Origin: a virus
Length of the DNA stretch: 25,674 bases
Reading direction: 5' to 3' (one strand)
Virus record (IMG/VR): IMGVR_UViG_3300025102_000252
Span: 1-25,674 of that record
This document shows positions 823 to 8,728 of the stretch, one piece after another; position 1 is the stretch's first letter, and the number at the start of each line of letters is the position of its first letter. The notes beneath the pieces are model-generated. The model saw nothing but the letters and a program-made list of their open reading frames with translations, did no database searches and was not told the origin of the DNA. The translations under genes were made by a program, and so were the position numbers.

Positions 823-979
823 GATTACCCTCGTTTGGAATTAAAATAGAGAGGCGTTGTTCATATGATTTGCTACAACCTCAACTTGAATAACCAATGT
901 ATCTAATTGTAGAATCAAACAGGATTTATACTTTAATAGCTATCCTCTTTTACGCTAACCTCTCACTTGGAGATATGAA
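823..979 (-). promoter_or_regulatory. possible structured 5' leader of the primase gene (three-way junction)
   Basis: This 157-base gap between two leftward genes contains three complementary pairs that nest into a three-way junction: GAGAGG 849-854 with CCTCTC 959-964 closes the element, CTACAA 873-878 pairs with TTGTAG 907-912, and AGGAT 921-925 pairs with ATCCT 942-946. The closing stem lies about 30 bases upstream of the primase ATG. No known riboswitch consensus was recognised. The pairing is seen in the sequence; any regulatory role is inference. Confidence 0.4.
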
Positions 980-3141: not shown

Positions 3142-3333
3142 CTATAAAGTATATCTTATAATATCTTTTCCTTCTACTCTACCAAAAGGACTATCATATA
3201 TTTTAAGAATTTCACACCTGTTGTCAAATCTTTTTCTTTGCTCATCACAAATATTTTCTGCAATCTCTTTAGCTTTTTCATCACTATCACACCAAATGTT
3301 TAGTGATAGTTCTACTCTATATCTATCCTTCAT
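3142..3333 (-). CDS. 63-aa protein, unknown
   Basis: The ORF starts MKDRYRVELSLNIWCDSDEKAKEIAENICDEQ, a beta strand then amphipathic helix pattern with three Cys. AGAGGAG lies 5 bases before the ATG, and the ATG overlaps the preceding TGA (ATGA, 3330-3333). Its alternation looks like a small ferredoxin-like fold of the type seen in many phage accessory proteins, but no family is recognised. Confidence 0.68.
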   Translation of the reverse strand: MKDRYRVELSLNIWCDSDEKAKEIAENICDEQRKRFDNRCEILKIYDSPFGRVEGKDIIRYTL

Positions 3334-3539
3334 GTTATCTCCTCTAATGATTTTGAATTTTCATCACTTCTTTCTCCATAATATTTTCTTATAATTCTAA
3401 TCGCATGGATTATATCTATTTCCATAATATCCATATCAATCTCACGATTATTGCTATAATACACCCATTTCTCTGCCATGTCAACAGGTATTGTTTTACC
3501 TAGTACTTCTTCTATTTCTAATACTTGCTTAAGTTTCAT
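3330..3539 (-). CDS. 69-aa protein, unknown
   Basis: The ORF starts MKLKQVLEIEEVLG, with a helical and acidic body containing DMDIMEIDIIHAIRIIRKYYGE. A strong AAAGGAG site precedes the ATG, and a 10-bp hairpin (3562-3593) lies just upstream of that site. It is the first gene after the structured gap 3540-3815. It overlaps the next gene by 4 bases. Confidence 0.7.
   Translation of the reverse strand: MKLKQVLEIEEVLGKTIPVDMAEKWVYYSNNREIDMDIMEIDIIHAIRIIRKYYGERSDENSKSLEEIT
3456..3484 (-). promoter_or_regulatory. possible internal leftward promoter
   Basis: TTGACA (3484-3479) and TATTAT (3461-3456) are 17 bases apart, 11 of 12 to consensus, inside the 69-aa gene. It could give extra transcription of the small genes from 3333 leftward. 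In such AT-rich coding DNA chance is a real alternative. Confidence 0.38.
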
Positions 3540-3815
3540 TGTTATCTCCTTTAAAATTAAGTAATAGTTTTTGCTCTTGTTGGAAAACTATTAAACCTCA
3601 AACTTAAATCTCATCTGATAAGTTACAGCAAGGTTTTCAGTTGTTTAATTTATATCAGTATAAACTGTGGGTCTTACCCAAAAGACTGATAGCTCGTCAG
3701 CATTGGTGCTAGTTTGATTGGTTTAAAGACAGCTTAAAATACTAGCAAAGTCTGTCTGCAAATTGTGGCTTTGTTGTTTTAAGTCTGTTCAAACCTCCAC
3801 GCAAGTGTGGGAAAA
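3540..3815 (-). ncRNA. candidate structured RNA with pseudoknot (276-base gap)
   Basis: No ORF with support lies here. Complementary pairs fill most of the stretch: TAATAGTTTT 3562-3571 with AAAACTATTA 3584-3593 (10 bp); CTGATA 3615-3620 with TATCAG 3653-3658; TGGGT 3668-3672 with ACCCA 3676-3680; CTGA 3686-3689 with TCAG 3697-3700; CCAC 3797-3800 with GTGG 3807-3810. An H-type pseudoknot is possible: TGCTAGT 3707-3713 with ACTAGCA 3741-3747, interleaved with AGACAG 3727-3732 and CTGTCT 3752-3757. The leftward transcript would carry it between the GP88 gene and the 69-aa gene; strand is inferred from the neighbours. A second TGGGT-NNN-ACCCA hairpin occurs in the other gap (5475-5487). The pairs are seen; RNA function is inference. 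Confidence 0.45.
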
Positions 3816-4523
3816 TCAGACATGAATGACAAAGCCTGACATATCATGTCGTGCCTTGCCCTTTGCTTTTAGACCAACAATAACATTGTCTTTGTCTAAA
3901 AATCTTAAGTCTGTTTCATCGCCATTGACTACTTCTCTACCTTTGAAATAGATAGGGAAAGCACCATTGAATACTACTGCTATGTTGTATGCAATCTTGT
4001 CATACCATGCTGTATACTTTGCATTGGCTTCGGAGTATGACCATGTCAAATGATAGTTCTTGATGTGAGATACTTTTCTTGTAGGTATCTTGGTGTAGTC
4101 ATAAAACTGTATGTCTGGGAAGTGTTCAAACATAGTCTTGCCTTTGTATAGTTTGTTCTCCCATTGTATATCACTTGTGCCATTCAATCTAAATGCAGGT
4201 GTTATATCCTTTTTGTTGCAATAGTTTATAAACCTTGTAATCTCTGTATGTAATAGTTCCATGAAATTATCATAGTCATCTAAATACATATCAGTTCTAC
4301 GCTGTCTAGCATCTTGTATGCGATTAGTATTTTCGCCCTTCTTGAATATACCACCACGCCCTGCTGTATTTAAACAAGCAGTCTTACAAGATGCTATGTC
4401 TTGAAATGGACATATCTTTGTGCTAACAGGTCGCAAATGCATGATAGCTGTAAGTATATTGTTATACTTCTTGAAACCTTTTATAGTCTTTGGATTGTTT
4501 GTTGTTAATAGTTTGTATGACAT
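3816..4523 (-). CDS. GP88 family protein (phage protein of unknown function)
   Basis: A 235-aa protein starting MSYKLLTTNNPKTIKGFKKYN. The order L-x-T-x-N-x-KT-x-KG, then LRPVS, then C38-P-x6-C46-x3-C50-L, then GRGG (55-58) and R-x-RT-x-MYL matches my memory of the phage 'gene product 88' family, whose function is not established. The three clustered cysteines could bind a metal or an iron-sulfur cluster; that is inference. The C-terminal half contains aromatic-rich YHLTWSYSEANAKY (about 157-170). The gene is followed 1 base after the preceding stop and leads into the structured gap 3540-3815. Length is usual for the family. Confidence 0.75.
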   Translation of the reverse strand: MSYKLLTTNNPKTIKGFKKYNNILTAIMHLRPVSTKICPFQDIASCKTACLNTAGRGGIFKKGENTNRIQDARQRRTDMYLDDYDNFMELLHTEITRFINYCNKKDITPAFRLNGTSDIQWENKLYKGKTMFEHFPDIQFYDYTKIPTRKVSHIKNYHLTWSYSEANAKYTAWYDKIAYNIAVVFNGAFPIYFKGREVVNGDETDLRFLDKDNVIVGLKAKGKARHDMSGFVIHV

Positions 4524-5420: not shown

Positions 5421-5641
5421 AATATATCTCCATATAATTTAGTTAATAAAAGTGGGTAGTTTTTTTGCTTCTTGTGGGTGATACCCAGCACCAAATTCGG
5501 CAGGAGTAGTGAAGGTTAATTAGATATTGAGTTTTATAGACTTCTCTGTCTCACGCTTACTACTCCTAGTGCCTATAGTTTTAGTCAATTTTATTTATAT
5601 GTGGAGACATGGTTCTCGCCAAACGACACATACTATATGCT
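5421..5641 (-). ncRNA. candidate structured RNA or leader (221-base gap)
   Basis: No supported ORF lies here. The main feature is a long stem, GGAGTAGTGA 5503-5512 with TTACTACTCC 5557-5566, extended across a small unequal loop by GGC 5499-5501 with GCC 5571-5573. A short hairpin TGGGT-GAT-ACCCA (5475-5487) lies between this stem and the next gene, and it repeats the hairpin type found at 3668-3680. On the leftward strand the upstream part contains ACTATAGG (5580-5573), which resembles the core of T7-type promoters but is too weak to call. Strand is inferred from the flanking leftward genes. Confidence 0.42.
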
Positions 5642-7712: not shown

Positions 7713-7742
7713 AAGGGCTATTTAATATAGCCCTTTTTTTTT
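7713..7742 (+). terminator. intrinsic terminator after the regulator pair
   Basis: AAGGGCTAT (7713-7721) pairs with ATAGCCCTT (7727-7735), 9 bp with a 5-base loop, followed by a run of T to 7742. Textbook rho-independent form on the rightward strand. Confidence 0.9.
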
Positions 7743-8041: not shown

Positions 8042-8060
8042 ATATTTTTATTATTCTAAA

Positions 8061-8088
8061 GGGGCTATTTTATGTAGCCCTTTTTTTT
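8061..8088 (+). terminator. intrinsic terminator after the 78-aa gene
   Basis: GGGCTA (8062-8067) pairs with TAGCCC (8075-8080), 7-base loop, followed by eight T. It is closely related in sequence to the terminator at 7713-7742. Confidence 0.87.
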
Positions 8089-8134
8089 GTCTGTAATAAA
8101 TCTAAACTTCAATTTTAAGCCCTTTAAATTCAAT

Positions 8135-8237
8135 CTGATACTAACCTACCTTATTTTCCTTTTAGGCTCTCAACGGCTCTTACAAGTCCATACAAGGCTA
8201 TTAATCTAATTAACACTCATGCTGATACTTACCTAGC
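8135..8237. repeat. direct repeat pair of 16 bases
   Basis: CTGATACTAACCTACC (8135-8150) and CTGATACTTACCTAGC (8222-8237) match at 14 of 16 positions, 87 bases apart start to start. A nearby GGCTCT also occurs twice (8165-8170, 8175-8180). Confidence 0.6.
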
Positions 8238-8380
8238 TATTAAGACCAACAAAGAGCCTTAAAGACTTGTATAGCTTTTTAAAGTTATTTACATATCTAA
8301 CCGTTGATTGCTATCACAGAAACACATCAAATCTTTAAAATTTTGGTAAGTTCTCGCCGTATATCTTTACAAATCCCAAT

Positions 8381-8490
8381 AATCTATATAGTTCTATGTA
8401 GTTCTATGTAGTTCTATGTAGTTCTTTGTAGTTTTTTGATGTTTTTTCCATAGATTTATGTAGTTCTATATAGTTCTTTAAAGTTCTTTA
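8381..8490. repeat. 10-bp T-rich iterations
   Basis: GTTCTATGTA occurs three times in tandem (8391-8420), then variants GTTCTTTGTA, GTTTTTTGAT, GTTTTTTCCA (8421-8450) and, after a 10-base break, TAGTTCTATA, TAGTTCTTTA and AAGTTCTTTA (8461-8490). Period 10 keeps T-tracts on one face of the helix, which can bend DNA, and resembles iterons. Function inferred. Confidence 0.65.
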
Positions 8491-8638
8491 GGGCAGGGCA
8501 GGATAACCACCCCCATACCCCCTATATATATGTAGTGCTTACACATTTTTAGAGATTTTCAGTTGGTAACTTCACAGGGCTAAACAGAGCAGAACAGCTC
8601 CCTAGAATATGTATTCAACCCTCGGCAGACTTAATCTT

Positions 8639-8667
8639 ATTATAGAGATATATTTGCATTTTGTCAA
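8639..8667 (-). promoter_or_regulatory. perfect consensus leftward promoter with no gene downstream
   Basis: On the leftward strand TTGACA (8667-8662) and TATAAT (8644-8639) are 17 bases apart, 12 of 12 to consensus. Transcription from about 8632 would run through the repeats 8042-8630, which hold no ORF in that direction, toward the 78-aa gene antisense. Confidence 0.7.
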
Positions 8668-8693
8668 GTCTTTTTTAAAATATTTATTAATAC

Positions 8694-8722
8694 TTGACAA
8701 ATGCTCCATATAACACTATAAT
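8694..8722 (+). promoter_or_regulatory. perfect consensus promoter for the late arm, leaderless layout
   Basis: TTGACA (8694-8699) and TATAAT (8717-8722) are 17 bases apart, 12 of 12. The normal start, 7 bases after the last T of the -10, is base 8729, the A of the TerS ATG. No ribosome binding site could be included. Confidence 0.82.
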
Positions 8723-8728
8723 ATCTGT

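Follow-up and report, generated by a model that had tools for sequence, protein, structure and literature searches.

Genomic context of the intergenic gap

The window, by which we mean the whole stretch of 25,674 nucleotides analysed here (IMG/VR record IMGVR_UViG_3300025102_000252), is a 25.7-kb marine phage fragment with an SU10-type portal. Because its terminase is nearest to those of the cultured SAR11 phages HTVC115P, HTVC103P and HTVC104P (63–65% identity), the host of the phage is probably SAR11. The genes of the left arm lie on the minus strand, and this arm also carries a perfect TTGACA-17-TATAAT at 1779–1751 (minus strand). A long non-coding stretch (8042–8728), with repeated AGTTCTATGT units near 8395–8480, separates two divergent arms, and terminator-like stems followed by T runs occur near 7715–7740 and 8061–8090.

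A gene-free gap in the left arm, whose limits were given exactly by the initial annotation (3540–3815), lies between two minus-strand ORFs. A transcript of the operon would read the gap together with these flanking genes, and the relevant RNA is therefore the minus (sense) strand. The features of the locus, all on the minus strand, are as follows.

3816–4523, minus strand: GP88-family gene, upstream of the gap (PF17338, Pfam E 8e-41, 235 aa)
3756–3821, minus strand: unit A; stem P1 GUCUG/CAGAC, hairpin P2 CCAC/GUGG, pseudoknot P3 GGUUU with AAGCC
3707–3757, minus strand: PK-B, H-type pseudoknot; S1 AGACAG/CUGUCU, S2 UGCUAGU/ACUAGCA, A-rich loop 3
3631–3715, minus strand: M7; UAUCAGU/ACUGAUA and GGGU/ACCC hairpin, possible pseudoknot CAGUU/AACUG (pairings by eye)
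3562–3601, minus strand: terminal element; 10-bp stem 3593–3584/3571–3562 (from the sequence)
3330–3539, minus strand: 69-aa ORF, downstream of the gap, without a family match

Structured RNA modules make up the gap

All the helices named by the initial annotation are present. The 10-bp hairpin, 3562–3571 TAATAGTTTT with 3584–3593 AAAACTATTA, is perfect when the sequence is read directly, and so are both interleaved pairs, 3707–3713/3741–3747 (TGCTAGT/ACTAGCA) and 3727–3732/3752–3757 (AGACAG/CTGTCT). The sense-strand H-type pseudoknot was equalled or exceeded in 1 of 200 dinucleotide shuffles, and the best plus-strand pseudoknot in 38 of 200. Folding energy (z of −1.4 for the sense strand and −3.2 for the plus strand) is not decisive and gives the sense strand no special place, which makes comparison the basis of the argument. 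In agreement with the initial annotation, which had recognised no known RNA family, a search with 4227 Rfam models, at the gathering threshold and at E up to 5, gave chance-level hits and no credible match. ARAGORN called no tRNA or tmRNA. The minus strand of 3540–3815 contains no terminator-like site, so that read-through of the array is expected.

As judged by comparison with related loci, structured RNA modules, most of them H-type pseudoknots, follow one another in the gap as an array that would be read on the minus strand together with the early genes on either side. The order is unit A (3821–3756), PK-B (3757–3707), M7 (3715–3631) and a terminal hairpin or pseudoknot. Unit A contains the UGA with which the GP88 gene ends, and the covariance model R2 scores 89.5 bits on the window copy, which is part of its training set. 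PK-B is the interleaved pseudoknot noted previously. M7 offers too little variation for a covariation count; within it, CUGACGAG was considered by eye as a possible hammerhead, an idea that was dropped, as the GAAA core is not in place. In the terminal element, a possible S1 (UUGAGG/CCAACAA) would make the element PK-B-like.

The modules are exchanged among related phages

Loci were collected via homologues of GP88 (80 loci) and of the small ORF (37 loci). In relatives, the same gap is either missing or filled with 170–590 nt of exchangeable modules. Just 12–19 bases separate the GP88 stop from the next start in L002, L004, L011 and L012, and the relatives with such short junctions include some whose GP88 is 95–98% identical; L003, L006, L007 and L008 carry an insert after GP88, though they are equally close to the window. 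The inserts consist of blocks in differing orders. A block of 109 bases comprising unit A and PK-B is common to the window and L026 (94% identical), while M7 recurs with 85/85 identical nucleotides in L086 and L087 at another gene junction, after a homologue of the small gene and not after GP88. The unit A–PK-B block and the M7 block join at the AACTAGC arm of PK-B.

Comparison of these loci shows gain, loss and recombination of whole modules among related phages. A single compact RNA linked with GP88 or with the small genes that follow, as first proposed, does not agree with this mosaic: the gap is missing or very different in phages with 93–98% identical GP88, and the same modules are found before many other genes. 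The gap as a whole does vary in length and sequence, which had been named as grounds for doubting a structured RNA, but the modules within it are conserved and their stems covary. We regard structure and modularity as near certain.

Two further arrays and the M8 module

The window contains two further arrays, which lay beyond what the initial annotation could show.

5421–5641, minus strand: second array, intergenic; ends in pseudoknot PK-C at 5492–5453 (GGUG/CACC, UGGGUA/UACCCA)
847–966, minus strand: third array, M8; closing stem GAGAGG/CCUCUC, pseudoknot UAGC/GCUA and AGGAU/AUCCU, variable side hairpin

The inner part of the second array has a closing stem AGGAGUAGU/ACUACUCC. M8 adjoins a Toprim primase gene, lying directly upstream of it, and the window copy matches covariance model R1 with 101.9 bits, this copy being in the training set. 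Taken alone, M8 has the strongest support of any new RNA family in the window. It resembles a constant frame whose side domain can be exchanged: between GUUU and AUAUGAAC, the insert may be as small as a short hairpin or reach about 100 nt. In two copies (L091 3571–3711 and L122 5750–5870) a hairpin is inserted in pseudoknot loop 3.

Covariation and strand

The stems covary among relatives, pseudoknotted helices included, which supports the structured RNA and the H-type pseudoknot that the initial annotation had suggested. For unit A (27 sequences), 95.7% of cells are paired versus 86.1% in shuffles, and 29 cells are doubly changed versus 9.6; for M8 (30 sequences), 95.2% of cells are paired, and 14 of 20 pairs are doubly changed, with 103 such cells versus 31.6 in shuffles. 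For both modules, the observed values were reached in 0 of 500 shuffles, counts that are not probabilities because the sequences are related. When the partners were slid, pairing fell to at most 51% for unit A (1–3 columns) and at most 49% for M8, an excess that is partly built in since the structures were derived from the same sequences; the double changes are free of this effect. The pseudoknot helix of unit A is paired in all 27 sequences, with GC, UA and AU at one pair.

For PK-B, MAFFT misregistered stem 1 because loop lengths vary, and a partner-swap test was used. Over 25 divergent copies, the mean stem-1 score was 11.26 with the own partner versus 9.33 when swapped (0/5000), including two parse errors (L174 and L154) that lower the score. 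S2 of PK-B changes in concert (GCUAG, GGUAG, GCAAG, ACAAG), and PK-C appears in relatives as GGGUA/UACCC, AGGUA/UGCCU and AGGCA/UGCCU. Support is weaker for the structure of a further module, M1, where 13 close sequences gave 3 doubly changed pairs.

G-U pairs outnumber A-C pairs in unit A (15:0) and PK-B (7:2), while M8 is neutral in this test (12:10). Relative to the surrounding coding sequence, 127 copies are sense and 23 antisense by a rough ORF count. The G-U excess and the sense bias favour an RNA on the gene strand.

Distribution among viruses and hosts

The modules occur in more than 100 viral loci, mostly in gene sense. Pattern matches on viral contigs numbered 23 for M1, 74 for unit A (some by chance), 5 for M7 and 41 for M8. 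At least one module is present in 122 of 131 fetched loci, as expected for loci chosen by pattern match, and 73 of the 131 contain two or more module kinds. Of 16 large viral records (46–61 kb, several of them chosen for M8), 12 contain M8, and in 11 of these it occurs once. A noisy generic pseudoknot scan of 64 loci found the gaps enriched.

Among cultured phages, HTVC115P has a weak M8-like match in an annotated gap at 2738–2874 (21.9 bits, E 0.009 to 0.02); another annotated gap of this phage (L212, 2117–2303) contains interleaved GGCGG/CCGCC and GUGGUUU/AAACCAC. The M8 model found nothing in 397 SAR11-family genomes under stricter filters and without a positive control, and the M8 core pattern had no match in a genome collection of 84,980 species. 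Neither the gap nor a 586-nt relative array had a match in INPHARED at the nucleotide level.

Comparison with known systems

REP/BIME elements are interspersed, mosaic intergenic units in operons that can stabilise mRNA. The arrays resemble them as mosaic intergenic units, but REP units are simple palindromes, whereas the phage-borne modules are pseudoknots with conserved loops. Viral exonuclease-resistant RNAs are, like the modules, compact pseudoknotted folds, often in tandem; the modules gave no Rfam match. PeSL elements of T4-like phages are short intergenic stem-loops that are exchanged among phages, as the present elements are; PeSLs carry early promoters, and none was seen within the window array.

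Tandem pseudoknots also characterise the STAXI motif (RF01728) of Enterobacteriales, often near DNA-handling genes (PMC2864571). STAXI repeats one pseudoknot, whereas the window array combines different modules, and the hosts differ; RF01728 gave no match at the gathering threshold or at E up to 5. Type III antitoxins consist of H-type pseudoknots in tandem (PMC5086642), and phage pseudo-ToxI, which binds and blocks ToxN (PMC3475682), likewise lies in an intergenic gap. The window array also has an H-type pseudoknot. In a type III antitoxin, near-identical 34–36 nt repeats are followed by a terminator and a toxin gene; the modules of the window array differ from one another in sequence, and no terminator-like site or toxin gene was seen.

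Both tandem pseudoknots and candidate structured phage RNAs are already known as kinds (STAXI, type III antitoxins). In the open-access literature we found no description of several unrelated pseudoknot modules in interchangeable arrays, one of them with an exchangeable side domain, and nothing relevant on tandem pseudoknots or pelagiphage RNA. Despite the compactness of phage genomes, hundreds of bases are devoted here to knotted RNA that is recombined module by module. The defined modules and their covariance models allow a direct test of whether such modular RNA serves phages of abundant ocean bacteria in protecting transcripts or in blocking host proteins.

Possible functions of the arrays

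More than 20 different ORFs lie downstream of modules on the module strand, so a module is not the regulator of one gene; nor does any gene seem to depend on the array, because its presence varies freely between close relatives. In 39 of 68 distinct copies of PK-B, a Shine-Dalgarno site and an ATG follow at no more than 60 nt, which holds for 9.5% of random positions; 14–39 nt (median 24 nt) lie between the end of the pseudoknot and the start codon. The RNase J family is present in 27 of 31 SAR11 genomes. Based on the Shine-Dalgarno-proximal position, the many downstream ORFs and the SAR11 RNase J, we tentatively favour a cis-acting knotted barrier that would protect segments of phage mRNA (probability about 0.38). 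The array would be a road-block in cis just 5´ of the Shine-Dalgarno site. During decay of the polycistronic mRNA, RNase J arriving from the 5´ side and 3´-5´ enzymes from the other would stall at the array, so that the transcript segments would retain fixed, protected ends and their ribosome site would stay intact. Several points speak against such a barrier: the conserved unpaired bases of unit A and M8 exceed the needs of a generic one, the array comes and goes freely between close relatives, 23 of 150 clear-context copies look antisense, and the single-sequence fold beats shuffles on the plus strand and not on the sense strand. The presence of RNase J in SAR11 discriminates little, since RNase J is widespread.

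The main rival, a trans-acting decoy, we consider somewhat unlikely. Small pseudoknot RNAs would be released to block a host RNase or another defence protein, and different modules would target different host proteins. Phage pseudo-ToxI (PMC3475682) and type III antitoxins (PMC5086642) offer precedents, and the fast gain and loss, the numerous module types and the conserved cores with variable tips would suit a decoy; the modules within an array are unlike each other, contrary to antitoxin repeats, and a decoy has no need of a location right before Shine-Dalgarno sites. No Rfam antitoxin family matched, the flanking ORFs had no ToxN-family match, and none was found in 197 SAR11 genomes or 19 phage records (PF13958), where the control was silent too. 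A broader proposal, possible if on balance doubtful, is a combinatorial phage RNA system of at least six unrelated pseudoknot modules, with M8 a frame bearing an exchangeable side domain and with phage-specific arrays, perhaps a toolkit for anti-defence or RNA processing that SAR11 phages share.

The 14–39 nt between pseudoknot and start codon would fit cis regulators in which each terminal pseudoknot responds to a ligand or phage protein and so governs how the next gene is translated, similar to the T4 gene 32 pseudoknot or a small pseudoknot riboswitch. The repeated location of M8 upstream of a DNA primase gene and the conserved unpaired core bases point the same way, but the more than 20 downstream ORFs are unrelated, several different modules stand in a row, and presence and absence vary freely before one and the same gene, which leaves this explanation unlikely. 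Still less probable are selfish mobile elements, short DNA insertions spread by recombination whose structure serves their own movement, for example as single-stranded DNA in replication. The identical 85-nt M7 in different contexts, the empty sites and the mosaic junctions at the shared AACTAGC arm are consistent with such elements; M8, however, is usually single-copy per phage record, the G-U excess in unit A and PK-B (even in M8) points to RNA, and the sense-strand bias also argues against them.

The arrays can be leaders, because a sigma-70-like promoter (recognised by eye) immediately precedes the array in L207, L209 and L210 (about 6680–6760 in L210). The module after this promoter, different from those described above, has the closing stem UGUAGUU/AACUACA, and the L163 version of this stem, GUGGCUAG/CUAGCCAC, shows a concerted change by eye.
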